Shown here: piece by piece, positions 749-25,439 of the stretch
How positions within the stretch are numbered: position 1 is the stretch's first letter
How the letters are laid out: each line of letters opens with the position of its first letter
IMG/VR virus record: IMGVR_UViG_3300045999_012222
Location: 1-25,439 of that record
Strand: one strand, 5' to 3'
Length of the DNA: 25,439 nt
Origin: a virus
The notes under the pieces: model-generated
The model's database searches: none
Told to the model about the DNA's origin: nothing
The model's input: only the letters and a program-made list of their open reading frames with translations
Position numbers and translations under genes: made by a program

Positions 749-1096
749 ATGAAACGCTTTTTTCTTTCCTTCCTGCTGCTATGCCCCTTCCAAGCGCAAG
801 CAGCTCTCGAATGTGGCTACGCCTCGCACTATGGCGTTGGGGATTTTTATCACGGTCAACGCACGGCCAGCGGATCCACGTTCAATGCCTATTCCATGAC
901 TGCTGCCCACCCATGGCTTCCATTTGGCACGCGACTGCGTGTGAAGAACCGTAACAATGGAAAGTCAGTGACTGTAACGGTGGTCGACAGAGGTCCATAC
1001 TACGGGGGTCGCATCCTCGACCTGTCCTACGGCAGCTTCTCTCGTATTGCTTCCCCTTCCCAAGGCGAAGCGTCCATCTGCATCTCAAGACTATGA
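749..1096 (+). CDS. RlpA-like double-psi beta-barrel protein, secreted
   Basis: A 115-residue protein with an apparent signal peptide (MKRFF then a hydrophobic run, AQA-A near residue 18). The mature part is almost only an RlpA-like double-psi beta-barrel: GYASHYG (23-29), RTASG (38-42), MTAAH (50-54), LPFGTR, and DRGPYYGGRILDLS (80-93). The His of TAAH and the Asp of DRGP are the two residues known to matter in characterised RlpA lytic transglycosylases. It lacks the SPOR domain of bacterial RlpA. It probably acts on peptidoglycan during lysis or entry; that role is inferred. The start is ATG 749 rather than TTG 746. The next gene overlaps as ATGA. Confidence 0.85.
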   Translation: MKRFFLSFLLLCPFQAQAALECGYASHYGVGDFYHGQRTASGSTFNAYSMTAAHPWLPFGTRLRVKNRNNGKSVTVTVVDRGPYYGGRILDLSYGSFSRIASPSQGEASICISRL

Positions 1097-1281
1097 AAGA
1101 CGCAGCTTCATTTCTCTTGGTGAGCTTGGCGTTTGGACTTGGCATTTTTGCCATCGTCGCAGGCCCTGAAGCAATGCCTAACAAGGCAGGGCTTGACAAA
1201 TGCCTTCAGCACCATCCCGAGCGCTACTGCCGCATTGCTAATGGCTTTCCCGTGGCCAAGCTTGACAACTCAGCTCAGTAG
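1093..1281 (+). CDS. Small membrane or exported protein
   Basis: The ATG overlaps the RlpA-like stop (ATGA), so the two are translationally linked. The 62 residues comprise a hydrophobic segment at about 6-24 (FLLVSLAFGLGIFAIVAG) and a short tail with two cysteines (KCLQHHPERYC). This could be a signal anchor or signal peptide. The pairing with a cell-wall enzyme makes a lysis accessory such as a holin or spanin-like role possible, but there is no direct evidence for it. Confidence 0.6.
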   Translation: MKDAASFLLVSLAFGLGIFAIVAGPEAMPNKAGLDKCLQHHPERYCRIANGFPVAKLDNSAQ

Positions 1282-1308
1282 CCTCTACACTCTCCCTGGA
1301 TGACGGAC

Positions 1309-1337
1309 GGGGCTTCCTAAGCGGGAGCCCTTCTTTC
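1309..1337 (+). terminator. Terminator hairpin
   Basis: GGGCTTCC (1310-1317) pairs with GGGAGCCC (1323-1330), including one G-T pair, around loop TAAGC, followed by TTCTTTCC. It separates the RlpA-like pair from the next unit. Confidence 0.65.
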
Positions 1338-1371
1338 CTCCCTCCATACTCCCCCTGGCGACAGGCTCCTC

Positions 1372-1650
1372 ATGGACAAAACCTCCCGCATTAAACAGTT
1401 CATCTTCAATGCTGGTCACAGCATTGTTTCAGTGGAATTCATCAAGGCTGATGGTTCCGTGCGCAAGCTCCAATTTAACCCTTGGGACACCAAGGAAATC
1501 AAGGGAACAGGCACAGCAGTCAAGAAGCCCAGCATTGTGCGTTGTCGTGATTTCTCCATTGCTCGTAAAGAAGGAGAAGGTGCATGGCGTTCGTTTGATT
1601 GTGAGCGCGTGACAAGCATCAAGGCCAACGGGCAAACCCTCGTCTTCTGA
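1372..1650 (+). CDS. WYL_2-like (Sm-like SH3 barrel) protein
   Basis: A 92-residue protein with alternating beta-strand pattern. VSVEFIKADGSVRKLQF (about 20-36), followed by a charged central loop and RSFDCERVTSIKANGQTLVF at the end, matches by eye the small phage WYL_2/DUF2693 group (SH3-like barrel). In that family the usual signature is VEFxKxDGxxR near the start and a final INxxxIxxLxxxG strand. Function is unknown, with nucleic-acid or effector binding assumed from the fold. No Shine-Dalgarno precedes the ATG (CTCCTCATG). Confidence 0.55.
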   Translation: MDKTSRIKQFIFNAGHSIVSVEFIKADGSVRKLQFNPWDTKEIKGTGTAVKKPSIVRCRDFSIARKEGEGAWRSFDCERVTSIKANGQTLVF

Positions 1651-5525: not shown

Positions 5526-5870
5526 ATGGGAACAAATTATTATCTTCATGCTCCAAAATGCTTTCATTGCGGCAAGGAAGAAGAGTCTCCTATTCACCTT
5601 GGCAAAAGTTCATGGGGTTGGTGCTTCAGCCTTCGCGTGATGCCAGAAGAAGGTATTTGCAATTGGCAAGACATTCAACAACTCATTGAAGACAAACTAT
5701 GCGAAGAATGGTGCATAAAGAATGAATATGACGAGCAAATTAGCTTGGTTGATTTCATTAAAACCGTCACTAAACGCAGTGGCTCTCTTCGTCGACACGA
5801 TATTGATCATTGGCATTGCATTGGCCATGGCGAAGGCACTTATGACTATATCATTGGAGAATTCTCATGA
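5526..5870 (+). CDS. Conserved phage hypothetical protein (MGTNYYLH family)
   Basis: The 114-residue product starts MGTNYYLHAPKCFHCGKEEE and has HLGKSSWGWCFSLRV and PEEGI. This signature (MGTNYY, CxxCG, HIGKSSxGWCF) is one I recognise from widely spread phage and bacterial hypothetical proteins. The CxxC pair and His residues suggest metal binding. Function unknown. The ATG at 5526 is preferred over the TTG at 5520; the end overlaps the next gene as ATGA. Confidence 0.75.
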   Translation: MGTNYYLHAPKCFHCGKEEESPIHLGKSSWGWCFSLRVMPEEGICNWQDIQQLIEDKLCEEWCIKNEYDEQISLVDFIKTVTKRSGSLRRHDIDHWHCIGHGEGTYDYIIGEFS

Positions 5871-6025
5871 TCCTCATTGATTTCTTTGACGAAGCTTTGT
5901 GCAAAGGCACTGAGCTTCTTGAAGGCTGGTATTATTACAGTGATAGCGACGAGCAAACTGTTGGAGGACCGTTTGAAAGCGAAGAAGCGGCCATCAAGGC
6001 CGCTTTTGATGGGAAGGGCTGGTAA
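5867..6025 (+). CDS. Small acidic protein (52 aa)
   Basis: ATGA overlap with the preceding gene. It reads MILIDFFDEALCKGTELLEG followed by WYYYSDSDEQTVGGPFES and a final helix. The WYYY...GPF...EEAAIKAA pattern is shared with small cyanophage proteins I have seen. It is the last gene before the repeat-rich non-coding region. Confidence 0.6.
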   Translation: MILIDFFDEALCKGTELLEGWYYYSDSDEQTVGGPFESEEAAIKAAFDGKGW

Positions 6026-6046
6026 AAATTTTGGAAACGATGGAAA

Positions 6047-6107
6047 GCGGTATAAAGGGACTTGTTAAAAGGCGGTATAGGGACTTGCTGAAATGCGGTA
6101 ATATGGG
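6047..6107. repeat. Three direct repeats (iteron-like), GCGGTATA...GGGACTTG
   Basis: Copies at 6047-6064 (GCGGTATAAAGGGACTTG), 6072-6087 (GCGGTATAGGGACTTG) and 6095-6107 (GCGGTAATATGGG) lie 25 and 23 bases apart. The spacing is near two helical turns, so bound protein would face one side of the DNA. They sit in a non-coding gap directly upstream of the dyad cluster. Confidence 0.7.
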
Positions 6108-6129
6108 AGCGCTAAAATAGGCCGTTTTT

Positions 6130-6316
6130 CTAGTACATCTGTACTAGTGCTAACGATACGGAACCGTAGCAAAACCGCTGCTGATACGGATCAGTATCAG
6201 GCCTAATTCTCGATACGGATTGTGATCAGGCCCCAATTCCTGATACGTATCAAGACCAGGCTCTGATCAGGATAATTATCCAAGGCGGCTGTTGATACGA
6301 TTCCGTATCATGATCA
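6130..6316. promoter_or_regulatory. Cluster of dyad-symmetric sites (TGATACG family)
   Basis: Perfect or near-perfect inverted repeats: CTAGTAC-ATCT-GTACTAG (6130-6147), TACGG-AA-CCGTA (6157-6168), TGATAC-N6-GTATCA (6182-6199), a decayed copy at 6211-6228, TGATACGTATCA (6241-6252), GGATAATTATCC (6270-6281) and TGATACG-ATTC-CGTATCA (6293-6310), plus three TGATCA. Several begin about 29-30 bases apart. This looks like a multi-site operator or replication origin. It lies in a gene-free stretch (6026-6426). Confidence 0.65.
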
Positions 6317-6382
6317 GCTCACAGGCCTCCCTCGGGCTAGTTGCAATTGAGAATCAGTCGCAATAAAGAGGCTTTGCCTCCT

Positions 6383-6424
6383 ATGCTCCTATGCGGCAAG
6401 ACGCATAAAAACAAATATAAAGAG
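6383..6424 (+). repeat. Left boundary repeat of the A-poor island
   Basis: ATGCTCCTATGCG, seven variable bases, GCATAA and ATATAAAGA. The same series occurs at 9145-9178 on the other side of the island. The core GCGGCAAGACGC can form a small hairpin and TATAAA could be a -10 box. Confidence 0.65.
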
Positions 6425-6429
6425 ATGTG

Positions 6430-6508
6430 ACAATCCGGCGAGAGCGCTCTGGCTCCTTCGCCTCTGCTCTCTATTGTCTCTGGCAGAGGCGAGCGATCGC
6501 CTCGCTCC
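6430..6508 (+). promoter_or_regulatory. Island leader element, copy 1
   Basis: Contains TGTGACAA, a CGGC-rich imperfect hairpin, TATTGTC (TATTGT 6472-6477), and GAGGCGAGCGATCGCCTCGC with a HIP1 octamer (6493-6500). It matches the segment 7336-7418 almost base for base in its last 40 bases, and the ATG follows the HIP1 octamer by about the same distance in both. Confidence 0.65.
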
Positions 6509-6522
6509 TTCGCTGTCTTGCC

Positions 6523-6888
6523 ATGCTGGCTCCTTCTCTCCGTTCCCCTTCCTTCCCTCCTCTGTCTGACGCGATCGAGGCGCTCTTCTCGCTCCCTTGG
6601 CAGGCGATCGCCTCTCGCTCCTTTGAAGCTCTCCTCTTCTCTGTGGCTCTCTGCCATGCTCTCGCCTCTCGCCTCTGGCAAGAGCGAGGCCGACTCGCTC
6701 CCTTCCTTCGCTCTGTTGCCGCTCTGCTCGAGCGCCTCGCCGCTTCTCTGCCAGAGCCTCTCTCCTCTGCCTCTCCTCGCGCTCTGCTGATCGAGGCTCT
6801 GACGCAAGCTGGCGAGAGCTCCTCTTCTCTTGAGAAGGCTTCCCGCTCTGCTCTGCTCAAGCGAGCCTCTCGCCTCGGCCTCCTCTGA
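6523..6888 (+). CDS. Island protein 1, Leu/Ser/Ala-rich helical
   Basis: A 121-residue product rich in Leu, Ser, Ala and Arg with almost no Asn or Tyr, as expected from its A-poor DNA. It has amphipathic helices (SDAIEALFSLPWQAIASRSF, RSVAALLERLAASL). ATG 6523 is chosen because it lies 30 bases after the HIP1 octamer, matching the 31-base distance at 7434; a GTG at 6427 would extend through the leader. No Shine-Dalgarno. Function and family unknown. The AGGCCT palindrome at 6901 follows the stop by 12 bases. Confidence 0.5.
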   Translation: MLAPSLRSPSFPPLSDAIEALFSLPWQAIASRSFEALLFSVALCHALASRLWQERGRLAPFLRSVAALLERLAASLPEPLSSASPRALLIEALTQAGESSSSLEKASRSALLKRASRLGLL

Positions 6889-6900
6889 GATCCTCCTCCT

Positions 6901-6922
6901 AGGGAGGCCTCGAGGCCTCCCT
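6901..6922. terminator. Perfect 22-base AGGCCT palindrome after island gene 1
   Basis: AGGGAGGCCTC/GAGGCCTCCCT is a perfect inverted repeat. It is not followed by a T-tract but by a C/T-rich run. Related hairpins follow other island stops. Confidence 0.55.
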
Positions 6923-6952
6923 CCTCTCCTCTGTTCTCTCGCTCTCCTTCCT

Positions 6953-7147
6953 ATGTCGACTCACGAGCTCCTCGCCTCCGATCTCTCCTGGCCTCGCTTC
7001 TCCTTCTCCTCTCGCCGCGAGGCCGCTCTACTCGCTCGCGAGCTCGAGGAGCGCCTCTCCTCTGGTGAGCTCTCCCCCTCTGTCAGAGCAGAGGCCGAGG
7101 AGATGCTCGAGGAGCTTCTCTCCCTTCTCTTCTCTCCTCTCTCCTGA
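6953..7147 (+). CDS. Island protein 2, acidic-basic helical
   Basis: A 64-residue product: MSTHELLASDLSWPRFSFSS, then a long charged helix (AALLARELEERLSSGELS, RAEAEEMLEELLSLLF). The heptad-like Leu spacing suggests a coiled coil or helical hairpin. Preceded by CTTCCT immediately before ATG, with no Shine-Dalgarno. Unknown family. Confidence 0.55.
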   Translation: MSTHELLASDLSWPRFSFSSRREAALLARELEERLSSGELSPSVRAEAEEMLEELLSLLFSPLS

Positions 7148-7156
7148 GGCTCTGCC

Positions 7157-7339
7157 ATGCCATCTCCCCTCTCTCCCTCTGAGCTCGCCTCGCTCCTCGA
7201 TCGAGCCGAGAAGGCAGGCCTCGCCTCCTCTGGCCTCCCTCTCGTGCTCGAGGAGCTCGCTAGGTGGCTCCCCTCTGCCACGGTTGAGGCCTTTCTCTCT
7301 GATCTAGAGGAGCTCCTCGCGGATTGTGACGGATTGTGA
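7157..7339 (+). CDS. Island protein 3, helical
   Basis: A 60-residue protein starting nine bases after the previous stop: SPSELASLLDRAEKAGL, LPLVLEELARWLPSATVEAF, LSDLEELLADCDGL. Clear amphipathic helices with acidic end. The stop lies inside a tandem GGATTGTGAC repeat (7321-7340). No known family. Confidence 0.55.
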   Translation: MPSPLSPSELASLLDRAEKAGLASSGLPLVLEELARWLPSATVEAFLSDLEELLADCDGL

Positions 7340-7418
7340 CAACACGGCCGGGAGGCTCTGGCCTCCCTTCCTGGCTTCTCTATTGTCTCTGGCATGAGGC
7401 GAGCGATCGCCTCGCTCT
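7336..7418 (+). promoter_or_regulatory. Island leader element, copy 2
   Basis: TGTGACAA, then hairpin GGGAGGC-TCTG-GCCTCCC (7350-7367), TATTGTC (TATTGT 7381-7386) and GAGGCGAGCGATCGCCTCGCTC with HIP1 at 7403-7410. Same order as copy 1 at 6430-6508. The hairpin-then-TATTGT order also matches the cassettes at 2454, 3559, 4957 and 10407. Confidence 0.65.
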
Positions 7419-7433
7419 CTCGCTTCTCTTCTC

Positions 7434-7547
7434 ATGCGCTCCCCCTCCTCCTCCTTCGCCTTCTCTGCTCTCTCTGAGCTCGAGGCCTTTCTCCTCTGGC
7501 TTCCTGAGGCCTCGGCCTCTCTCCTCCTTCCTTCGCTCTCCCTCTGA
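7434..7547 (+). CDS. Island small protein 4 (37 aa)
   Basis: ATG CGC ... TGA encodes MRSPSSSFAFSALSELEAFL followed by LWLPEASASLL and a Leu/Ser end. The start is preceded by CTTCTC, as for gene 7610. The WLPxA phrase also occurs in island protein 3 (RWLPSATVEAF). Could be a small hydrophobic peptide. Low confidence because of its size and biased composition. Confidence 0.35.
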   Translation: MRSPSSSFAFSALSELEAFLLWLPEASASLLLPSLSL

Positions 7548-7560
7548 GCTCCTCCCCTCT

Positions 7561-7582
7561 GAGGAGGCCTCGAGGCCTCCTC
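7561..7582. terminator. Perfect 22-base AGGCCT palindrome after 7547
   Basis: GAGGAGGCCTC/GAGGCCTCCTC. The central 18 bases are identical to the palindrome at 6901. It lies in the gap before the GP88-like gene. Confidence 0.55.
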
Positions 7583-7609
7583 GCCTCCCCTTCCTTCGCT
7601 TCCCTTCTC

Positions 7610-8728
7610 ATGGCCTCTGCTCTCCTCGCTCCTCCCGCTCCTCTCAAGTTCGGCCGAGCTCCTCGGCTCCCTCAGGAGCTCCGCTCCTTCCTTGATCGCT
7701 TCGGCCTCTCCCTAGATTCTCTCCTCACCTATGGGAGTTCAAACGCGAAGCTCGCGAAGGGGAGCGGCCTCGCCTTCTCTGCTCTGTTGCATCTCCTCCC
7801 CTCTCGCTCCCTGGCTCGCGCTCTGTCCCCTTCTCTGCCTGGCTCTGTTGCCGTAAGAGGGGAGCTCCCTGGCTTGCGAGAGCTCGCTGATCGCGAAGGC
7901 CTCACCGCTCGCGCTCTCCTCTTTAATGCCTGCCCTTTTGCTACAGAGAGCTGTCAGGATCTCTGCCTCGCCTTCTCTGGCCACGGTGGCCTCTCTACTA
8001 ATGTGGCCTCCTGCCGTGCTCGCCGTGCTCTCGCCTTCCTCGCTGATCGCGAGGCCTTCGCTCGCTGTCTCCTATGGGCCGCTGGCCTCTCCTATCGTAA
8101 GGCTCGCCGTCTCGGCCTCCCCTTCGCTCTGAGGCTCAATGGTACGCAAGAGCTCCCTTGGTGGGAGGCCTGGCTCGCTGCTCGCCTCTCCACAGAGGAG
8201 GCCGAGGCGCTCTCCCTCCTTTTCGGCGCTCCTATACCCTCTGGCATCCGTACCGTCCCTGAAACTCTCTCCTCGGTCCCCTTCCTTTCTCTTTATGACT
8301 ACACCAAGGCGCCTCTGTTCGGCGCTGCTGGCCTGATCGCCGCTCGCGAATCTGGCGTGCACGTAACGGCCTCCTTCGCGGTTGATCAGGAGCGCTGTTC
8401 CTCTCGCGCAATCGATGCGGCAGAGGCAGGCTTTTCTGTTGCCGTGCCGATCATCCTTCCTAAGGCCTCGCCTCTTCCTGCCTCGCTCTTCCTTCGCGAT
8501 CCTCACGGCCGCGAGGCTCTCCTTCAGTGTATCGATGGAGACGCAAACGATCTCAGGATGCTCGATCCCTCTCCCGCTCCTGGCTTCTCTGGCCTCGCCG
8601 TGCTCCTTCGCCTCAAGCGCTCGAGAGGAGCAAAGCCTGAGAGCGCCTCTCGCTTCGCTCTCCCTCTTGGCTCTGGCTCCTGGCAGGCTCTCCCTGATGG
8701 TGGCTCCTTCGCCTTCTCTCGCTCTTAA
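7610..8728 (+). CDS. GP88-family phage protein (function unknown)
   Basis: A 372-residue protein recognisable by YGSSNAKLAKG (about 42-52), NACPFATESCQDLCLAFSGH with a three-Cys cluster (about 105-124), RLNGTQELPW (about 174-183), a YDYTK motif, and a late GDANDLRMLDP segment. These are the signatures of the mycobacteriophage gp88-like family found in many phages and plasmids. Its molecular role is not known to me; the Cys cluster suggests metal binding. Codon use is extreme (CTC, TCC, CGC, GCC) and the coding strand is pyrimidine-rich, yet the conserved motifs survive, so the bias is at the DNA or RNA level. No Shine-Dalgarno (CTTCTCATG). Confidence 0.8.
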   Translation: MASALLAPPAPLKFGRAPRLPQELRSFLDRFGLSLDSLLTYGSSNAKLAKGSGLAFSALLHLLPSRSLARALSPSLPGSVAVRGELPGLRELADREGLTARALLFNACPFATESCQDLCLAFSGHGGLSTNVASCRARRALAFLADREAFARCLLWAAGLSYRKARRLGLPFALRLNGTQELPWWEAWLAARLSTEEAEALSLLFGAPIPSGIRTVPETLSSVPFLSLYDYTKAPLFGAAGLIAARESGVHVTASFAVDQERCSSRAIDAAEAGFSVAVPIILPKASPLPASLFLRDPHGREALLQCIDGDANDLRMLDPSPAPGFSGLAVLLRLKRSRGAKPESASRFALPLGSGSWQALPDGGSFAFSRS

Positions 8729-8762
8729 GGTTCTGGCCTCCTCCTTCCTCTCTCCTCTCCTA

Positions 8763-8782
8763 GGGAGGCCTCAGGGCCTCCC
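8763..8782. terminator. Hairpin after the GP88-like gene
   Basis: GGGAGGCC-TCAG-GGCCTCCC, an eight-base-pair stem with four-base loop, the third of the AGGCCT-type hairpins. It lies between the GP88 stop (8728) and ATG 8795. Followed by a C/T run. Confidence 0.55.
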
Positions 8783-8794
8783 GCTCCTCTTCCT

Positions 8795-9016
8795 ATGATC
8801 GCGCCTCGCCTCCTTCTCCTCTCCTCTCGCTCCTTCCTCTTTCTCCTCTCTCCTCCTCCCTTCCCTCTCCCCCTCATCTCTCGCTACGGCTCCTGGTCTC
8901 GAGAGCCCGGCTGGCTCTCTATCCTCTCCCTTCGCCTTCCCTTTCTCTGGCTCATTCTCCTTCGCTCTCGCACCACTAAACGGCGCCTCAAGCAGCTAGG
9001 AAACCTCCTCCCCTAA
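8795..9016 (+). CDS. Island protein 6, putative membrane protein
   Basis: A 73-residue protein with two hydrophobic segments (LLLLSSRSFLFLLSPPPF, about 6-23, and WLSILSLRLPFLWLILL, about 40-56) and a basic end (RSRTTKRRLKQLG). The basic tail following the second segment suggests a small two-pass membrane protein. Codon bias relaxes near its 3' end, approaching the island border. Preceded by CTTCCT, no Shine-Dalgarno. Confidence 0.45.
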   Translation: MIAPRLLLLSSRSFLFLLSPPPFPLPLISRYGSWSREPGWLSILSLRLPFLWLILLRSRTTKRRLKQLGNLLP

Positions 9017-9036
9017 CATCCCCTCAACCTCTAGCC

Positions 9037-9094
9037 AGAGGCCTCTTTCGGCCTCTCTCCTGCGCCTCTTAGCCTCTCAGGCTGAGAGGTTTTG
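9037..9094 (+). terminator. Tandem hairpins and terminator at the end of the island
   Basis: AGAGGCC-TCTTTC-GGCCTCT (9037-9056), then CCTCTC-AGGCT-GAGAGG (9074-9089) followed by TTTT. Only this last island hairpin carries a T-run, so it is the best terminator of the island. Confidence 0.6.
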
Positions 9095-9144
9095 CCGTGC
9101 TTGGCTTTACTGTTGGCGTCTGGCTTCTCTCGCTATAAGGGGAG

Positions 9145-9179
9145 ATGCTCCTATGCGCATAGCCGCATAATATAAAGAA
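9145..9179 (+). repeat. Right boundary repeat of the A-poor island
   Basis: ATGCTCCTATGCG, seven variable bases, GCATAA and TATAAAGA, in the same orientation as 6383-6424. The two differ mainly in the seven-base middle and a six-base gap before TATAAA. Confidence 0.65.
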
Positions 9180-9180
9180 T

Positions 9181-9205
9181 AAAAAAGGCCCGCTAATTTG
9201 CGGGC
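9181..9205 (-). terminator. Rho-independent terminator (minus strand)
   Basis: Read on the minus strand: GCCCGC-AAATTA-GCGGGC followed by CTTTTTT. It begins nine bases after the stop of gene 9214-9375. Confidence 0.85.
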
Positions 9206-9213
9206 TATTGTTG

Positions 9214-9618: not shown

Positions 9619-10206
9619 TCACCAGTTGCACAAATGTTCTTGTGCTTTTAATTCGCGCCACCAAGCATGTGATCGCCCTTGTCCGCGTTGACAAGAAAGT
9701 TGTCCTGGCCACCAATAAGCGCCTTTAGAAATATTTTGAGAAGCTTCTAGGACCATAAGATTTGCAGGCACGTGCAATCCGCAAACAAAATCGTTTTGCA
9801 ATGGCACGATGTGGTCCACGTGAAAAGACTGACCAGTGGCTTGTTCTAGCCATTCAGCGTGAAGATAATGAGCTTGCATTTCTTTTCTCACATCTCCTTT
9901 TCTGGCCCACGAGGGACACGCATTAAGCTTTTGAGCTTTTCTTAAGCGACTCTTCGCTCGTTCCTTGCCAGGATTTTCTTTTCTCCAGCGTTTAACTCTT
10001 GCCCTGACAATTTCTGCGCAACGGTTGCCATATTCGCGATTCCTGCTCCGCTCTTTTTCTCTATTGGCTTCTCTGTAGGTATGGCGAGAAGCTTTATTGC
10101 AAGCAGTGCATTCATTCATTTTGCCATCGCGCCTTTTGACTTCGTTGTAAAACTCAGAAAAGGCCTTAAAAGTCCTACATTTTACGCAAGCTTTAATACC
10201 TTGCAT
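9619..10206 (-). CDS. HNH homing-type endonuclease
   Basis: A 195-residue protein from ATG 10206; an in-frame TTG at 10227 would add seven residues. It begins with paired CxxC motifs (CVKC 7-10, CTAC 33-36), as in zinc-ribbon starts of phage HNH proteins, then a long basic helical region. The HNH core follows: FHVDHIVPLQND (128-139), GLHVPANLMVLEASQNISKG (143-162). The DH pair and two Asn are the expected catalytic and structural residues. It would cut DNA and probably spreads by homing. It sits alone between the island and nrd genes on the opposite strand. Confidence 0.85.
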   Translation of the reverse strand: MQGIKACVKCRTFKAFSEFYNEVKRRDGKMNECTACNKASRHTYREANREKERSRNREYGNRCAEIVRARVKRWRKENPGKERAKSRLRKAQKLNACPSWARKGDVRKEMQAHYLHAEWLEQATGQSFHVDHIVPLQNDFVCGLHVPANLMVLEASQNISKGAYWWPGQLSCQRGQGRSHAWWRELKAQEHLCNW

Positions 10207-10321
10207 TTTCGTGAAACTGCTCCACAAATCTTAACGATGCAAAAGCTAGTCGCACTACGCTGAAAGCAAGCCAAAGGCGCCGCTTGAAGCGTTTCAGACG
10301 ATTAGCTAGACCAATGGAGCC

Positions 10322-10765: not shown

Positions 10766-10792
10766 GTCCCTGCTGTCCCGATCCTGTTATGA
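10766..10792 (+). promoter_or_regulatory. Extended -10 promoter upstream of gene 10816
   Basis: TGTTATGAT (10784-10792) is an extended -10 (TGnTATAAT) with TTGTCC about 18 bases before the -10 hexamer. Transcription would begin near 10799, just before the GGAG and ATG 10816, which supports that start over ATG 10789. Confidence 0.55.
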
Positions 10793-10815
10793 TGAGGGTT
10801 CTCAGCGGAGCAGGC

Positions 10816-11511
10816 ATGGTTCAGGCGAAGGAAAAGAAGCGCAAAACAGAGGGCTGGGTGTATTTCATTCAATGGGCGAGCATGCCCTATCACGTGAAAA
10901 TTGGCTTCTCCACGTCGCCGGGAGAGCGCTTTGCATCGTTCCTCACGTCATCGCCTGACACGTTGATCGTCGTGAAAGCTTTTGAGGCCAATCGAGACGA
11001 TGAGAAAGATTTGCACGAGCGCTTTGACAATTCTCGTCACGCTGGCGAATGGTTCCATCTTTCCATGGCAATCAAGAAATATCTTGAGAGTGAAGCACCT
11101 TGTCAAACGCTGGAAGCGAAGATTAAGTTTGGCCATAAAAATGAAAGTCGCATTCAATGGACGCCCATGCGACCGGGGCTGGCTCAGTCTCTTGAGAAAT
11201 TGCATCAAGAGAAACGCCTACCTCGCTACGTGAAGAATGCCAGAACGTTTGTACTATGGGCCATTGGAGACATCGAAGCCTGCGATTATTTCGCCACTTC
11301 TAATGCCATCATTCATCATGAGGCCAATCGTGATGCTTATCAAGCAAAAACCATCTATAACCAACTCATTGCATTGGAGGAAGAAGAAGTGATTGTAAAG
11401 AAGCCTGGCAAAACATTTACCTTGCTTCCTAAGGGAGAAAGTGAACTAATTGCAGCGGAAAAGGAGAATGCACAAAAGCGCAAAAGCGCGCGAAGCTTAA
11501 GGCTTGATTAA
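10816..11511 (+). CDS. T5orf172/GIY-YIG-like domain protein with C-terminal winged helix
   Basis: A 231-residue protein. Start ATG 10816 because GGAG lies five bases upstream. Residues about 13-83 (GWVYFIQWASMPYHVKIGFS, then a charged central helix DEKDLHERFDNSRHAGEWFHLS) match the T5orf172/Mug113 branch of the GIY-YIG fold. The C-terminal part (about 150-215) looks like a winged helix (QLIALEEEEVIVKKPGKTF, LLPKGESEL). Expected to bind or cut DNA; whether it is an active nuclease is unclear. It lies between a non-coding region and nrdA. Confidence 0.7.
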   Translation: MVQAKEKKRKTEGWVYFIQWASMPYHVKIGFSTSPGERFASFLTSSPDTLIVVKAFEANRDDEKDLHERFDNSRHAGEWFHLSMAIKKYLESEAPCQTLEAKIKFGHKNESRIQWTPMRPGLAQSLEKLHQEKRLPRYVKNARTFVLWAIGDIEACDYFATSNAIIHHEANRDAYQAKTIYNQLIALEEEEVIVKKPGKTFTLLPKGESELIAAEKENAQKRKSARSLRLD

Positions 11512-11842: not shown

Positions 11843-13288
11843 ATGAAGCTGAAGGAAAAGGCAAAATGTGAGCCGATTGCCCGGACGGGGCGCGTCCAGG
11901 ATTGGCTGGAAAGCCCTGATGGACGCCTGCCCGTGAGCTGCACGGTGTTCAACGTAGAGGATTCAATGGAGGGCGAAGATGGTATTGAAGCGTCTTGGCG
12001 GTTTGTCAGCCATGGCTTGCGCAATGGTGCGGGCGTCGCTGTTCATTTGTCTTCTCTGCGTGAAAGGGGCGCTGAAAATGGCAAAGGCCTCGTGGCAAGC
12101 GGACCAGTAAGTTTTGGCAAGATTTATTCCACGCTTAATGAAATCCTTCGTCGTGGTGGTCTCTATAAAAACGGGGCTGTAGTGCTTCATCTTGACTATA
12201 CTTCTCCTGATGCCATTGAATTTGTTAATGCTTCGCGGAGCGAGCTTCCCTGGGTGAAGCGCTGCTTGAACGTCGACGATAATTTCCTTGATGCATCGTC
12301 TCCCGAGTTGATTAATGCCTGTCTTCGTTCCATCTCTTCTGGCGATCTCTGGCTCAACAAAATTCGCTACAACAATCGAGGAGAACGCATCCGGGCTAAT
12401 GTATGCTTGGAGGTTTATCTTCCGCATCGCGGCACTTGTCTTCTTCAGCACGTTAATTTGGGCGCATGCACGCTGGACAATATTCAGGGAGCCTTCATTG
12501 AAGGGATGAAGCAGCTTTGTGAGCTGCATCCTGGAACTGGCGTTGGTGACACCGGAGAATACCTTTCTCCCTCCATTGACAAACAAATTGGCCTTGGCGT
12601 GTTGGGCCTAGCTAATTTCCTTGCTATTCAAGGGATTAGCTACGAAGATTTTGGCAATGCACTAGAGGCTTATCTTGACGAAGATCCGCATCCTTGGGCG
12701 CACCACTGGAAAGATACCATTTCTGGCGAAGCCGTATGGCAGATTGACCAAGGCATTCAGAAGGCTGCTGAAATTGCTCGTGAGCATGGCATGGAACGTG
12801 CTTTCTGCATTGCCCCCACTGCATCGTGCTCCTATCGCTACCTCGACACGAAAGGCTTTACTACAGCCCCTGAAATCGCTCCTCCCATTGGACGTATTGT
12901 TGATCGTGATAGCGGCACTTTTGGCGTGGAACAATTTGACTACGGCGATGTAGAAATTGCTGCAGAAGTGGGCTGGGACGTTTTCTTTAAGGTGGCAAAT
13001 GGCATTGTTGCGTTGTATCAACGCACTGGCTTGATGCACGGGTATTCGTGTAATAGTTGGTCGGATTGTGTGATTTACGATGAAGCATTCCTTCGCGCTT
13101 GGCTAGAATCACCTCAGACGAGCCTCTATTACAGCTTGCAAGTCCTGCCTGATACTCAGCGCAAGGATGACGCCTATGCCGCTCTAGACGACGACTTCAA
13201 AAGCATGTTCGGCCTTGATAGCGAGGCTGACCAAAATTCTGAAGCTTGCTCACTGGACGGCGGATTCTGTTCTAGTTGCGCTGAATGA
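11843..13288 (+). CDS. nrdA: Ribonucleoside-diphosphate reductase, class I alpha subunit (short phage form)
   Basis: This 481-residue protein reduces ribonucleotides for phage DNA synthesis. By eye it carries the class I set: redox Cys 33 (VSCTVFN), the N-x-C-x-E catalytic triad at 186-190 (NVCLE), the second redox Cys at 199 (GTCLLQHVNLGA), APTASCSYRY near 324-333, the radical-transfer YY pair (429-430) and a C-terminal CSSCAE (476-481) for electron delivery. It lacks the N-terminal ATP cone and is far shorter than bacterial NrdA (about 750), like the compact cyanophage RNRs once mistaken for class II. nrdB follows after a terminator-like hairpin. Start ATG 11843 has no strong Shine-Dalgarno. 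Confidence 0.9.
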   Translation: MKLKEKAKCEPIARTGRVQDWLESPDGRLPVSCTVFNVEDSMEGEDGIEASWRFVSHGLRNGAGVAVHLSSLRERGAENGKGLVASGPVSFGKIYSTLNEILRRGGLYKNGAVVLHLDYTSPDAIEFVNASRSELPWVKRCLNVDDNFLDASSPELINACLRSISSGDLWLNKIRYNNRGERIRANVCLEVYLPHRGTCLLQHVNLGACTLDNIQGAFIEGMKQLCELHPGTGVGDTGEYLSPSIDKQIGLGVLGLANFLAIQGISYEDFGNALEAYLDEDPHPWAHHWKDTISGEAVWQIDQGIQKAAEIAREHGMERAFCIAPTASCSYRYLDTKGFTTAPEIAPPIGRIVDRDSGTFGVEQFDYGDVEIAAEVGWDVFFKVANGIVALYQRTGLMHGYSCNSWSDCVIYDEAFLRAWLESPQTSLYYSLQVLPDTQRKDDAYAALDDDFKSMFGLDSEADQNSEACSLDGGFCSSCAE

Positions 13289-13297
13289 TCAAGATAA

Positions 13298-13340
13298 GGG
13301 GGCTTGCGCCCCCTTTTGTCCCCCTTTTTTTTTATTGAAC
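13298..13340 (+). promoter_or_regulatory. Hairpin, T-run and ATTGAACC box between nrdA and nrdB
   Basis: GGGGGC-TTGC-GCCCCC, then TTTTGTCCCCC and a nine-T run leading into TATTGAACC just before ATG 13347. The order hairpin, T/C-run, TATTG box resembles the cassettes elsewhere. It suggests nrdB has its own transcript or attenuated read-through. Confidence 0.55.
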
Positions 13341-13346
13341 CATACC

Positions 13347-14078
13347 ATGACTGCTACGAGCCCCTACCTGTCCATGATCTCCAAGAAGCGCCCTTGGCAG
13401 GCTACGCCTGTGGATGCTGCCCCCGTGAAAGAAGGCGCAGAGGAGACACTGTTCAAGGCTTTGGCGCTGCGCCACATGGAACTGCCAGTGAAAGATCTAC
13501 TTGAGCAGGGTCTCCAGCGCGATCTCCCTTCCACTCCTGGCATCATTGAAGCCCTGCACTCCAACCAAAAGGACGAAGAGCGGCACGATGAAGCTTTGAA
13601 CTATGTAGTTTCCACTTACGGCACTGATGAGAAAGCTGAGCGCGAAGTGAAGCAGATTCTCAAAACATGGATGGAGCACCCCGCCCATCCCATTCACAAG
13701 GTGGCAATCATTGAGCGCTCTATTTTCTTTGTTGCATTGCCCTTCTTTAGGTTCAATGGCAACATTGGCATGAGGACCGTCTCAGCCGACATTAGCCGCG
13801 ATGAGCAAGTGCACTGCGGGGTGCATGGTCTTGTTGCTCGGGAGCTAAACGAAAAAGATTCGGAAAGCCTAAACAAGCTCCGCAAGGCAACTGTTGGATG
13901 GCTCTTTGAAAAGCTTGGTCGTCATGAGGACAAGTGGTTGGACAAAGATGCTTGGATGAAGCGTTCTGAGCGCTTGTTTTGGGAAGGGAAAGCTCCTGAC
14001 ATGGTGGAGTCTCGCGCAAGCCGCATGATTTCGTTCTTTGAAGCGCCGAATACATCGCTGCCTAGCTACGGGATATAG
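13347..14078 (+). CDS. nrdB: Ribonucleoside-diphosphate reductase, class I beta subunit (short)
   Basis: A 243-residue ferritin-like protein, about two thirds of bacterial NrdB length. Dimetal ligand candidates are visible: E45 or D50, E77-x-x-H80 (DEERH), E123 (IIERS) and E153-x-x-H156 (DEQVH). At the position of the tyrosyl-radical residue (four after the first ligand His) there is Leu84, not Tyr. It supplies the radical or oxidised metal centre to NrdA. Start ATG 13347 follows the inter-nrd hairpin; a longer frame from 13215 overlaps the nrdA end and is rejected. No Shine-Dalgarno. Confidence 0.88.
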   Translation: MTATSPYLSMISKKRPWQATPVDAAPVKEGAEETLFKALALRHMELPVKDLLEQGLQRDLPSTPGIIEALHSNQKDEERHDEALNYVVSTYGTDEKAEREVKQILKTWMEHPAHPIHKVAIIERSIFFVALPFFRFNGNIGMRTVSADISRDEQVHCGVHGLVARELNEKDSESLNKLRKATVGWLFEKLGRHEDKWLDKDAWMKRSERLFWEGKAPDMVESRASRMISFFEAPNTSLPSYGI

Positions 14079-15039: not shown

Positions 15040-15130
15040 GGGAGAGCACCTTGGCTTGGTGGGCGCGACGGCGTCAGAGGCGGTTCGATTCCGTTCTTCG
15101 GCAATGGTGGTTCGATTCCACCTTCTCCCC
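15040..15130 (+). tRNA. tRNA-Leu(CAG)-like element, possibly degenerate
   Basis: The 91-base element has acceptor GGGAGAG (15040-15046) pairing with TTCTCCC (15123-15129, one G-T). The anticodon stem is ACGGC/GCGGT with loop GTCAGAG (15073-15079; anticodon CAG, T33 and A37 present). A long variable region holds CCG-TTCTT-CGG, and the T arm GGTGG-TTCGATT-CCACC is perfect. The anticodon position and the ...GGGCGCGACGG... stretch fit class II tRNA-Leu. Against a working tRNA: the D stem does not pair well and base 73 is C, followed by TCCA. Fold done by eye only. Confidence 0.4.
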
Positions 15131-19223: not shown

Positions 19224-21323
19224 ATGGAAGGCGAAGCAATTGATCTCGGCCACGTTGGCAGTGGCGGAGTGAGGGCCGATGGCCTCCAAAACGTCTTAAC
19301 AGGGATGAATACTGGCCGTGATAAGAGTCAGTACACTAAAACTACTGCCACTGTATTCTTAGCTCAAGAAGAACTAGAAAATCTTTATGGTGAATGGCTT
19401 CCTCGTCGCATCGTTGACATTTATGCTGATCAAGCCACTCGGAAAGGCTTCAAAGTATTGTTTGGCGGAGAGGGCGTTAGAGCCGAAGAAGTGCAGGGCA
19501 TTGAACAAGTAATTGAAGATCTCTATATCCTTGAACACCTCAACCTCGCAGCGAAAAACTCCCGCTTATATGGGGGTGCTTGTCTACTTCTTTTTATTGA
19601 CGATGGGCGTCCCGCTTACATGCCTGTCGATAAACGCAATATACGTCGCGTCGAAGACATTGAATGTTTGGATAGATGGCAAATTGCTCCCGTTATCAAC
19701 GAAGAAAACCTCTACGACTATTCAAAAGCCACTTATTATCAGATCATCTCTGGAGATTTAATTAACCAGCCGCAATTGTCCTACATTCACAAAGACCGCA
19801 TTCTTCGCTTTGATGGAGATTGGCTTCCCTATCGAGTGAGGCAAAGGAACTATGGATGGGGCATGAGCAGCTTGCAGACTGTTTATGACAGCTTCAGGCA
19901 TTATTGGACTGGCTTGAATTCTGCCGCCACGCTTCTCACTGAGTTTGACATTTTTGTTCATAAAGTGAGGGGATTGGCGGCGATGCTTGCTGCTGGCAAA
20001 GAAAGCTCCATTCGTGATCGCTTACAAGTGAACGACATGAGCAAGAGCATTTATCGCGGTTATGCCATTGATGCAGAAAAGGAAGAACTTGAATTTATCA
20101 CTCGCAACTTTGGCGGCATTGGAGAAATATTAGAAAAGCTGCGCGTAGATATTATTGGCGCCAGCAAAATTCCTCACACTGTTCTATTTGGTGAAAGCCC
20201 AAGTGGCTTAGGCTCCACTGGTCGTAGCGAAGAGCGTGATTTCGCTAAAACGCTTGCTGATTACCAAAGCGTGCATTTCAAGCGGCCCATCAAAAAGCTG
20301 ATGGAACTGATCATGCTGAGCAAGGAAGGCCCCACGAAAGGAGAGCTTCCTGAATCGTGGCGCATTTCCTTCAATCCATTGTTTGAGCTTAATGAGCGCG
20401 AAATGGCGGACGTGCGGGCGCGTGTGGCGGCTGTGGATGGCCGCTACATTCAGCTAGGCGTGCTGAGTCCGAAGGAGGTGGCAGATGCCCGTTACGGCGG
20501 TTCTGAATGGAGCATGGAGCTTACGCTCGATCCGTCCGTAGTGCGGGAACTTCCCACTCAAGCCGGAGGTGGTTCCACTCAGGATGGGGGTGGTTCTGGA
20601 AAGATGGCAGTGCCTCCTGGTGGCCGCGATCCAATGAATGAGGAGAATGGCACTCTTCCCATGGACGGAAGCAGGGAAGTAGAGGACAGCCGGGAGGACA
20701 GCGCTGGCCTTTATTTGCCTGGCGATCTTGAGAAAGTTCGTGGCGACGTCAAATTCACTGACGAGGCTTTGCATTCACGAGCGGTGAGTGCTGCCAAGGC
20801 GAAGTTCAAAGTGTGGCCATCTGCTTATGCCAGCGGCTACGTCGTGCAGCAGTACAAGCAAATGTACAAGAAAAAGCATGGCTCACTGAGTGGCGCTTTT
20901 AAGAGCGACGATCAGGAGCTTCATGCCGATGATCTTGATAAGTGGTTCAAGGAGAAATGGGTGAGGATTGGTGGCAATGGCGAAATCCTTGGACCTTGTG
21001 GCGCTCGCGAGGAGAAAGAAGGCAAGCCCAAGTGTCTTCCTGAAGCCAAAGCTCAATCAATGAGCAAAGAAGAAAGACAGACGATTGTCGCTCGAAAGCG
21101 TAAGGCCGATCCCAATCCAGAGCGCAAAGGGCCAGCGAAGAATGTCAGCAGCAAAGTTGATGCGCTTGAACCCATGAAAGTGGAAGGTCTCATCCTTTCT
21201 GACGTGGACGAAGCATCGTTAATTAGCCCTGAAGACATTGATGCTGCATTGAACCAATGGAAGGAGGAAGCTCCAGAGCGTTTTAAGGATATTCTGGAGG
21301 CTGAAGATGCAAGGCCTGAATGA
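19224..21323 (+). CDS. Portal protein (DUF1073 family) with fused C-terminal domain
   Basis: The N-terminal 430 or so residues are a DUF1073-type portal: WLPRRIVDIYADQATRKGF, LYGGACLLLF, and IGASKIPHTVLFGESPSGLG with STGRSEERDF, ending in the clip/stem helices (SPKEVADARYG). It forms the DNA channel vertex. A Gly/Ser linker (about 448-465) leads to an added tail: KFKVWPSAYASGYVVQQYK (about 524-542), DLDKWFKEKWVRI (about 570-582), a Cys/basic segment (CGAREEKEGKPKCLPEAKAQ) and an acidic end. The tail resembles DUF5872-type basic modules known in phage and giant virus proteins. Portals usually lack it. Confidence 0.88.
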   Translation: MEGEAIDLGHVGSGGVRADGLQNVLTGMNTGRDKSQYTKTTATVFLAQEELENLYGEWLPRRIVDIYADQATRKGFKVLFGGEGVRAEEVQGIEQVIEDLYILEHLNLAAKNSRLYGGACLLLFIDDGRPAYMPVDKRNIRRVEDIECLDRWQIAPVINEENLYDYSKATYYQIISGDLINQPQLSYIHKDRILRFDGDWLPYRVRQRNYGWGMSSLQTVYDSFRHYWTGLNSAATLLTEFDIFVHKVRGLAAMLAAGKESSIRDRLQVNDMSKSIYRGYAIDAEKEELEFITRNFGGIGEILEKLRVDIIGASKIPHTVLFGESPSGLGSTGRSEERDFAKTLADYQSVHFKRPIKKLMELIMLSKEGPTKGELPESWRISFNPLFELNEREMADVRARVAAVDGRYIQLGVLSPKEVADARYGGSEWSMELTLDPSVVRELPTQAGGGSTQDGGGSGKMAVPPGGRDPMNEENGTLPMDGSREVEDSREDSAGLYLPGDLEKVRGDVKFTDEALHSRAVSAAKAKFKVWPSAYASGYVVQQYKQMYKKKHGSLSGAFKSDDQELHADDLDKWFKEKWVRIGGNGEILGPCGAREEKEGKPKCLPEAKAQSMSKEERQTIVARKRKADPNPERKGPAKNVSSKVDALEPMKVEGLILSDVDEASLISPEDIDAALNQWKEEAPERFKDILEAEDARPE

Positions 21324-24389: not shown

Positions 24390-25084
24390 CAGATGTCAAT
24401 GCAGAGGTGAGGTTGTACGCCTTGCCAGTTGCTTTTGGCCTTAGCGAGGTGCAGTTGAGGAAAGTATTCAATACGGCGCTGCATGCCAGTGCCATATGGA
24501 TCGGCATGCCCTTGATAGTTCCATTCATCGGGACCATGCTTGTCGGGATGGTAAATGTGACAAGGCACGTCTTGAAGCTTCCAAAGCATATAGTCCTCGT
24601 TGGGCACGCCCCATTGCTTCCACCATTGCAGTGCTTCTGGCGAGCTGTCCATGTTTTTGATGGCCAAGAGGCGCTCCTTGTGAGCCATGAGATAGTCGTG
24701 GCGGTAAAGGCCAATGCTCATGGATGGAGTGTGCTTCATTGCCACCTTCTCTGGTGCTTCCACTGGCGGCTCATAAGCTAATGCCTTGAAAGTGGGACCA
24801 GCTATGCAGGTGTCATGCAGAAGGAACCAGTATTGGCTTTCTAGTGAATGCTCAACAATTTCAATGAGAGGCGTGTATTCAAAAGAATTCTGCTGCGTCA
24901 GAAGCATTGGCACGCCTTTATAGGCGCTATGTGCTCGAACGGTTTGCCCTCCATTGACAATCAAAATTTCTTCTTGCTTGATGCCAGCAGCAAGCAAGCT
25001 AGGAATTATCACTGGAATTGTATGCGGAGCAAACTTCTTGCACGTACTAATACAGAAGCGAATGGATCCTTCTGGAAGTGTCAT
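24389..25084 (-). CDS. Glycosyltransferase-like protein (GT-A-like), tentative
   Basis: A 231-residue protein with a good Shine-Dalgarno (AAAGGAGG four bases before ATG 25084). It starts RFCISTCKKFAPHTIPVIIP, continues with an NGG turn, TPLIEIVEHSLESQYWFLLH, and LLHDTCIAGPTF. HDT could stand in for a DxD motif. NEDYMLWKLQ and AHKERLL follow later. The outline suggests a GT-A fold, but no known Pfam signature is certain. Linked with the FAD enzyme by TGATG overlap. Confidence 0.5.
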   Translation of the reverse strand: MTLPEGSIRFCISTCKKFAPHTIPVIIPSLLAAGIKQEEILIVNGGQTVRAHSAYKGVPMLLTQQNSFEYTPLIEIVEHSLESQYWFLLHDTCIAGPTFKALAYEPPVEAPEKVAMKHTPSMSIGLYRHDYLMAHKERLLAIKNMDSSPEALQWWKQWGVPNEDYMLWKLQDVPCHIYHPDKHGPDEWNYQGHADPYGTGMQRRIEYFPQLHLAKAKSNWQGVQPHLCIDI

Positions 25085-25145
25085 CTAGCCTCCTTTTGCC
25101 ATCAGTATAAAAGGCCCTTAAGATGACGAAGATTCGAGGAAGGCT
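25085..25145. promoter_or_regulatory. Overlapping divergent promoter region
   Basis: In the 61-base gap, plus-strand TATAAA (25106-25111) and minus-strand TATACT overlap in the same short AT segment. A plus-strand AGGAAGG lies before ATG 25146, and AAAGGAGG before ATG 25084 on the minus strand. Confidence 0.45.
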
Positions 25146-25439
25146 ATGGCTCGCATTCTGTATTGTGGCGATGCGTTTGTAGAAACAGGATTTGGTCGAG
25201 TGGCGCAATATTTGCTTCCTGCATTGGCAGAAGAACATGAAGTGGCTGTGCTGGCCGTAAACTTTCACGGCGACCCGCATCCAGAAGCGAAGAACTATAC
25301 CGTTTATCCAGCCATGCTTCATGGCAATGATCCATTCGGCTCCCATCGCATTGCAGGAGTCATTCAAGCATTTAAGCCCGACTTGGTGTGGGTGACTAAT
25401 GACATTTGGATTGCCTTGAATCTATGGGAAAAAGCAAAA
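25146..25439 (+). CDS. Glycosyltransferase family 4-like, N-terminal part (3' end outside window)
   Basis: 98 codons to the window end. ARILYCGDAFVETGFGRVAQ with Gly-rich loop, VAVLAVNFHGDPHP, and AFKPDLVWVTNDIW are the N-terminal Rossmann strand patterns of GT-B (GT4) enzymes. It lies divergent from the minus-strand glycosyltransferase-like gene. The C-terminal donor-binding domain is not visible. Confidence 0.65.
   Translation, partial: MARILYCGDAFVETGFGRVAQYLLPALAEEHEVAVLAVNFHGDPHPEAKNYTVYPAMLHGNDPFGSHRIAGVIQAFKPDLVWVTNDIWIALNLWEKAK

Follow-up and report, generated by a model that had tools for sequence, protein, structure and literature searches.

An A-poor operon at an exchanged cyanophage locus: depletion of A-N6-9-T pairs and its possible relation to Type I restriction

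Introduction

The locus considered here is an A-poor, pyrimidine-rich operon in the IMG/VR virus record IMGVR_UViG_3300045999_012222, analysed over its entire length of 25,439 bases (hereafter, the window); the described systems that come closest to it are the leading regions of phage T7 and of conjugative plasmids. In T7, entry begins with gene 0.3 (ocr), whose product, Ocr, disarms Type I restriction enzymes before the remaining DNA follows (PMC3874165); in the case of conjugative plasmids, restriction sites are lost from the mobile DNA, and counter-defence genes sit in the part that enters first (PMC11602122). The likeness to the plasmids would lie both in the shedding of restriction sites and in the early counter-defence genes, the likeness to T7 in the position of GP88, the family (PF17338, phrog_1617) to which the largest protein of the operon belongs and which is similarly end-placed in T7-like Pelagibacter, Roseobacter, and Mesorhizobium phages. 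The differences concern what is avoided and by whom: the plasmids avoid particular recognition sequences, mostly of Type II, whereas the island avoids a spacing common to Type I sites, within one operon, and one clade nearly loses a base; moreover, GP88 has no recognised similarity to Ocr, and the only pointer to the entry order of these cyanophages is that the S-CBS4 record begins and ends at the locus.

The feature shared by the cassettes found at this locus is a shortage of A-N6-9-T, that is, of an A followed by a T with 6–9 bases between them (distances 7–10), a pair which is its own reverse complement and places one adenine on each strand. Whichever cassette fills the locus, with the exception of that of relative G006, its DNA is depleted in A-N6-9-T and, given the symmetry of the pair, equally so on either strand. 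The literature searched, which had partial coverage, contained no account of A-poor phage operons or of Type I avoidance in a generic form; in a preliminary description of the window, too, it had been said that no system like it was known.

The Operon as One Cassette of a Hypervariable Locus

The island is sharply bounded: A amounts to 9.8% of its bases against 25.7% in the rest of the window, C to 40.3% against about 24%, with G at 22.4% and T at 27.6%, and the AT skew, about zero in the rest of the window, lies at about -0.4 to -0.57 across 6500–9000. Trinucleotide divergence singles the island out as the sole outlier within the window (maximum z 19.7), and several complete or near-complete S-CBS4-like genomes hold one such island each, at the same locus. 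The base counts from which the preliminary description had started are exact (3 A and 15 purines in the 60-base line from 6541, 5 A in that from 7141, 6 A in that from 8041), and its claim that the flanks lack the skew is borne out by sliding composition, AT skew, and trinucleotide divergence; the left border stays at about 6427, while the right one, placed at 9093, is closer to 9130. Two features had escaped it, namely the word bias (CTC occurs 323 times in 2.67 kb of the island, and GAG lies six-fold above the expectation from base composition) and the distance-specific avoidance of A...T pairs, of which, taken together, the depletion of A is one face.

The window represents part of the genome of a cyanophage akin to Synechococcus phage S-CBS4: its terL shares 76% identity with that of S-CBS4 and up to 100% with viral contigs, and ribonucleotide reductase, terminase, exonuclease and other recombination genes, and gene order place it in the same group; an exonuclease and a Sak-like protein are present in the complete relatives. 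S-CBS4 itself, in contrast, is without GP88 and the island, and its record starts and stops at the homologous place. A search of related phages for the same skew, which the preliminary description had proposed, returned through GP88 and ORF-A (the first open reading frame, ORF, of the operon) at least 20 relatives whose corresponding locus holds this CTC/GAG-rich operon, with A at about 10% and CTC at about 10–13 per 100 bases; in complete or near-complete relatives the island sits between two small genes and nrdA. The GP88 proteins of this clade were 73–92% identical to that of the window in the first alignment, and with L126, L173, L174, and L130 the clade reaches down to about 60%. No close known counterpart of the island emerged from DNA or protein searches of phages and plasmids.

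Other phages of the group carry other cassettes in the same place. G002 and G003 (terL 99%) have a CTC/GAG cassette made of unrelated genes and without GP88; the cassette of G009 holds a GP88 47% identical to that of the window and is written in a GGCC/CTTTG vocabulary, that of L050 in a CTTC/GAAG vocabulary, and that of G001 in yet another; G004, G005, G007, and G008 (the last cut by a contig end) have a cassette of ordinary composition with a distant GP88. Even phages that hardly differ in terL (98.9% identity or more) can have different cassettes. In S-CBS4-like cyanophages the locus is hypervariable, and the island, an operon, is one of its cassettes; since the cassettes vary, an A-poor composition is imposed neither by the locus nor by GP88 in itself. 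Position alone was rejected as its cause, the same locus also holding ordinary cassettes, and so was GP88, the genes of most members of the family being ordinary in base composition and the A-poor vocabulary being found only in this cyanophage clade.

A locus that behaves as an exchange hotspot, with differing cassettes beside near-identical terL, is what would be expected if a foreign cassette had retained the composition of its donor, and transfer from a different genome was among the explanations first offered. Cassettes are indeed exchanged, but transfer is insufficient as a cause: the pair rule is common to unrelated cassettes, the island vocabulary has been kept while the proteins diverged to 73–92% identity, and a composition that violates Chargaff's rule in this way (C 40%, A 10%) matches no genome known to us. 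A retained donor composition is, on balance, very improbable.

Depletion of A-N6-9-T Pairs

The ratios of observed to expected A...T pairs at distances 7, 8, 9, and 10 are.51,.75,.71, and.78 in the CTC islands,.55,.55,.59, and.77 in G009,.63,.68,.65, and.58 in L050,.64,.80,.84, and.77 in G001, and.73,.74,.77, and.80 in G005, a cassette of ordinary composition; the dip is weakest in G002 (.93,.89,.80, and.84). At distance 6 the ratios are 0.93–1.05 and at distance 11 they are 1.00–1.24, the flanks lying at about 0.97, and the N5 and N10 spacings are not generally depleted; T...A pairs show no dip at distances 7–10, and a mild, general A...T dip at distance 3 is outside this finding. In eight of the ten long genomes, the 1.5-kb stretches with the lowest A-N6-9-T score of the whole genome are those at this locus (z about -2.6 to -6.8), while the mean score along the ten genomes and S-CBS4 is 0.97–0.99. 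The preliminary description had named the same genes in normal composition as the observation that would tell against it; such copies do occur at the same locus (G004, G005, and G007), but they too follow the A...T rule and have their genome minimum there.

In the window, the operon contains 69 A-N6-9-T pairs per kb and the rest 262 per kb. The deficit persists against a Markov-3 control, in which base composition and 4-mers are preserved (187 pairs counted where 288 are expected, z -4.5; z -5.5 in G009), and against shuffling of synonymous codons in GP88 genes (z -5.1 in G005, -5.5 in L190, and -4.1 in the window, as opposed to +2.2 to -1.3 in seven control genes). In 45 dereplicated GP88 genes, picked regardless of signal although the discovery group contributes a few, the pooled z is -8.6 at distance 7, -5.9 at 8, -5.4 at 9, -4.3 at 10, and -0.6 at 11, the pooled effect being small (0.89–0.96); in the same contigs, the effect is weaker in ORFs within 2 kb and, at distances 7–10, absent from those lying beyond 3.5 kb.

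A Constraint on the Nucleic Acid

In 11 GP88 genes, CTC spans codon boundaries 750 times, compared with 471 after a synonymous-codon shuffle (z 22.6), and the corresponding figures are 179 and 75 for GAG, 22 and 110 for GCCC, and 24 and 74 for GGGC; control genes show similar, weaker word preferences. Because both the boundary-spanning words and the A-N6-9-T depletion outlast the shuffle, the constraint is on the nucleic acid and not on the protein, as had been proposed from the intact motifs of GP88. A dedicated translation mode, proposed at the same time, is not supported: the enrichment of CTC extends to all three frames, and the sole predicted tRNA of the window, tRNA-Leu(CAG) at 15040-15130 (+), does not read CTC, the dominant island codon; codon usage or tRNA supply was rejected as an explanation on the same grounds. 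A test of strand dependence on the small convergent gene at the right border was equivocal, as the third positions of this antisense gene lose both A and T; its homologues, of about 50 amino acids and also beside the terminator, are CTC/GAG-rich in L002, L006, L093, L101, and L125 and of ordinary composition in L098, L099, and L117, as in the window.

At the level of RNA, A-poor transcripts could dodge A-dependent RNases such as cyanobacterial RNase E, for which a signature has been published (A at -3/-4 and U at +2 of the cut) and whose induction by a Prochlorococcus phage has been reported; indeed, depletion of A on the coding strand reaches its genome minimum at the locus in seven of ten genomes, noncoding leaders included, and the border coincides with a terminator-like hairpin. 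Such an escape nevertheless seems quite unlikely. The distances 4–5 predicted by the signature (1.11/.96 in G009,.80/1.03 in L050, 1.34/1.13 in G005) are not avoided in all dialects, unlike distances 7–10, and the AU-clamp spacing was rejected as not common to them; the island RNA folds no more stably, and is no more structured, than that of control genes, whereby RNA structure as such was also rejected; and the island words are reverse-complement symmetric, which fits double-stranded DNA.

The same symmetry, in words that are lineage-specific, could come from a local context-dependent mutation regime, or from drift towards a lineage-specific vocabulary by slippage or short templated copying, with no selection involved; the repeats that crowd the upstream regions of this locus in relatives and the excess of 10–16-mers across the whole island point the same way. 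Within GP88, however, repeats are not in excess over the Markov-3 model, and the copying of patches was rejected for this reason. Furthermore, the synonymous divergence of the island in distant pairs is about half that of the flanking nrdA at similar protein divergence, hence below the flanks and not above them as a mutation hot spot predicts, an argument which is not decisive alone, as GP88 may be a fast protein; cassettes of ordinary composition are depleted in A-N6-9-T as well, and there is no evident reason for mutation to remove A...T pairs at distances 7–10 but not at 6 or 11. An origin by mutation or drift is accordingly considered unlikely.

A Possible Relation to Type I Restriction

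That the adenines of Type I sites are spaced in about this range was part of the general background when the range of distances appeared, before a table of the enzymes gave its exact limits. In that table each stated interval between methylated adenines is 6, 7, 8, or 9, none being 5 or 10, and the avoided A...T spacings coincide with the complete range (PMC3874165); as expected of DNA cleared of Type I sites, depletion is found at the methylation intervals 6–9 but not at 5 or 10. Known Type I sites occur 116 times in the CTC islands as against 181 with shifted spacers (0.64), and at 2.0 per kb as against 6.6 per kb in the flanks; the sites tested are mostly from enterobacteria and other distant hosts, and may not be the specificities of the hosts of these phages. 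An HsdS specificity domain was found in Synechococcus elongatus.

The best fit to this geometry, and a reading that the sequence comparisons make moderately probable, is that the locus holds an operon from which selection has cleared potential Type I sites, whatever their specificity. Escape from a nuclease, one of the options of the preliminary description, would thus remain the best-fitting one in a generic form, tied to the range of methylation intervals of a class of enzymes, and not as the avoidance of one specific sequence. The pair of half-sites read by Type I enzymes differs from host to host, but the enzymes listed keep the spacing of the adenines, and DNA without A-N6-9-T can hold no such site, whatever the specificity subunit, because all characterised Type I enzymes with a known interval methylate one adenine per strand, 6–9 bp apart. 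The near-loss of A from the coding strand, with the leftover A set among purines and T among pyrimidines, would be the most extreme solution, that of the clade of the window, and the CTC/GAG vocabulary a by-product of the clearing, other clades having arrived at other vocabularies. The operon would be used early, from unmodified incoming DNA and before restriction has been countered, as T7 gene 0.3 is; clearing a few kilobases would pay only if these enter, or are exposed, first. This early counter-defence role is less certain than the Type I explanation.

An enzyme-like geometry would also result if the cassette avoided the target of a nuclease or methyltransferase, with Type-I-like spacing, of its own or of a coexisting element, and in some annotated phages methyltransferase genes do lie near GP88. 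The island yielded no such enzyme and the window no HsdS domain, the signal is present in cassettes with and without GP88, and the remaining genome is not protected; avoidance of an own enzyme is therefore judged distinctly improbable.

The broader proposal, that phages keep an early operon secure against the whole class of Type I systems, that the depletion marks the counter-defence genes used first, and that GP88 is a new counter-defence family, is tentative, the chances being slightly against its holding in full. Several observations weigh against clearing as the explanation. The range of distances was first read from the data, in testing the RNase E signature, and then replicated; the depletion is only partial (0.5–0.85 of expectation), is weak in annotated isolates (pooled.94–.97), and is missing from G006, while G008 is cut at the locus. 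Outside the CTC clade, the ratios for known Type I sites are 0.88–0.99, not significant and of low power. A genome gains protection from the clearing of 3 kb only where this part is the first to be exposed, and the one pointer to that in these cyanophages is that the S-CBS4 record begins and ends at the locus; the early region of T7, in addition, has no generic A-N6-9-T depletion, and the strategy is therefore not universal. Finally, neither GP88 nor the other island proteins match known defence families, no anti-restriction protein was identified among them, and cassettes without GP88 likewise show the A...T pair signal.

Whereas site avoidance is usually described for individual recognition sequences, the feature avoided here matches a mechanical requirement of an enzyme class; if the reading is correct, class-wide avoidance could act even against specificities not yet encountered, and a bizarre base composition would be explained by a single testable rule. 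Depletion of A-N6-9-T could then serve as a score, computed from sequence only, by which operons for early counter-defence might be sought in uncultured phages; GP88, a phage family that is large, unannotated, and often placed at genome ends, would become a candidate for functional test.

GP88 and Its Position in Phage Genomes

The GP88 protein of the island matches Pfam PF17338 with E=1.5e-9 (38.5 bits, cut-off 24.4) and phrog_1617 with E=2e-23, and three Cys (C108, C115, and C119), spaced CX6CX3C, are invariant in 19 relatives. Its AlphaFold model is confident, with a predicted local distance difference test score of 85.6; no solved relative was found by a sequence search of the PDB, and Foldseek gave no match below E 0.001. 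The top rows of VIA-align are radical S-adenosylmethionine (SAM) enzymes, at Z of only 5-6 and with no radical-SAM match in sequence; this modelled likeness is a lead only. Radical SAM enzymes are defined by a CX3CX2C cluster motif and a partial TIM barrel. A profile search of genome contigs for GP88 gave no confirmed match. GP88 may be regarded as a candidate early counter-defence or takeover protein, and it need not be the protein that counters restriction because cassettes without it also follow the pair rule.

In T7-like and similar phages GP88 lies 0.3–1.8 kb from a record end (Table 1), and in mycobacteriophages such as Goose and Steamy about 1.4–2.3 kb from the right end; in several other records, some of them probably circularly permuted, it is not at an end. 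In Mesorhizobium phage Lo5R7ANS (L262), the stretch 1000–2000, which covers the first annotated gene, reaches only 0.71 of the A-N6-9-T expectation, and no other stretch of the first 16 kb is lower.

Other Features of the Locus

Table 1: Positions of the features of the operon and its borders in the window and, in the last row, of GP88 in other phages.
Feature	Position	Strand	Evidence or remark
Upstream array of short dyads (CTAGTACATCTGTACTAG, GATACGGATCAGTATCA, TGATACGTATCA, others)	6130..6320		Repeat family D3, inverted repeats I1/I7
Left border copy of a 39-nt imperfect direct repeat (ATGCTCCTATGCGGCA...GCATAAAAACAAATATAAA)	6383..6421	+	D18, 77% to right copy
A-poor CTC/GAG-rich operon	6427..9130	+	Composition, word and A-N6-9-T pair counts
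ORF-A, 153 amino acids	6427..6888	+	Relatives in 17 islands; no family match
Intergenic palindrome GGAGGCCTCGAGGCCTCC	6903..6920		Copies at 7563-7580 and (imperfect) 8764-8781; inverted repeats I2, I3, I5
ORF-B, 64 amino acids	6953..7147	+	Small protein family recurring among islands
ORF-C, 60 amino acids	7157..7339	+	Small protein recurring among islands
GP88-family protein, 372 amino acids	7610..8728	+	Pfam PF17338, phrog_1617, alignments, AlphaFold model
ORF6, 73 amino acids, small hydrophobic protein	8795..9016	+	Relative in L093, 51% identity
Right border copy of the direct repeat (ATGCTCCTATGCGCATAGCCGCATAATATAAAGAATAAA)	9145..9183	+	Repeat comparison
Intrinsic-terminator-like hairpin, right border	9187..9206	+	Kept in relatives
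Convergent small gene, 53 amino acids	9214..9375	-	Ordinary composition in the window
GP88 in other phages	HTVC120P 565-1311; HTVC309P 1397-2128; CRP-143 261-932; Lo5R7ANS 1734-2552; HTVC035P 817-1584		

ORF-A has an in-frame ATG at 6523, from which a protein of about 121 amino acids, closer in length to its relatives, would be made. At the left border a TATGCG..GCATA element is conserved, and the region of the left repeat copy is a putative promoter region; at the right border, the only Rfam match, over the terminator, was to Trp_leader and below threshold. The palindrome GGAGGCCTCGAGGCCTCC, in its 20-nt form, is confined to the clade of the window among the viral contigs searched; it was rejected as the mark of a mobile element, its occurrences in cellular genomes being scattered over unrelated taxa.

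The noncoding region upstream of the locus is, in every S-CBS4-like genome read, a lineage-specific array of short repeats or dyads, at the place that matches the array of the window (L071 ~20300-20700 (-), L050 14600-14848 (-), L135 ~5700-6450 (-), L149 ~13100-13700 (+), and L166 ~24900-25300 (-)); these arrays are possibly an operator or origin region. The minimum of cumulative GC skew lies close to the locus in four of the five genomes profiled (~41 kb in G001, ~40 kb in G009, ~13 kb in G010, and ~11 kb in G005). On the other side, an HNH-like ORF (9619-10227, -) and a T5orf172/MUG113 (GIY-YIG-type) ORF (10789-11511, +) adjoin the exchange locus, and might promote the swapping of cassettes.

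A phage-encoded RNase E was also considered and rejected: the S-CBS4 gene so labelled, gp086 (NC_016766.1 61648-62379; L108 16648-17376), does not read like RNase E but like a DNA-binding protein with a helix-turn-helix-like stretch, and it is kept in nearly all of the complete S-CBS4-like genomes searched.

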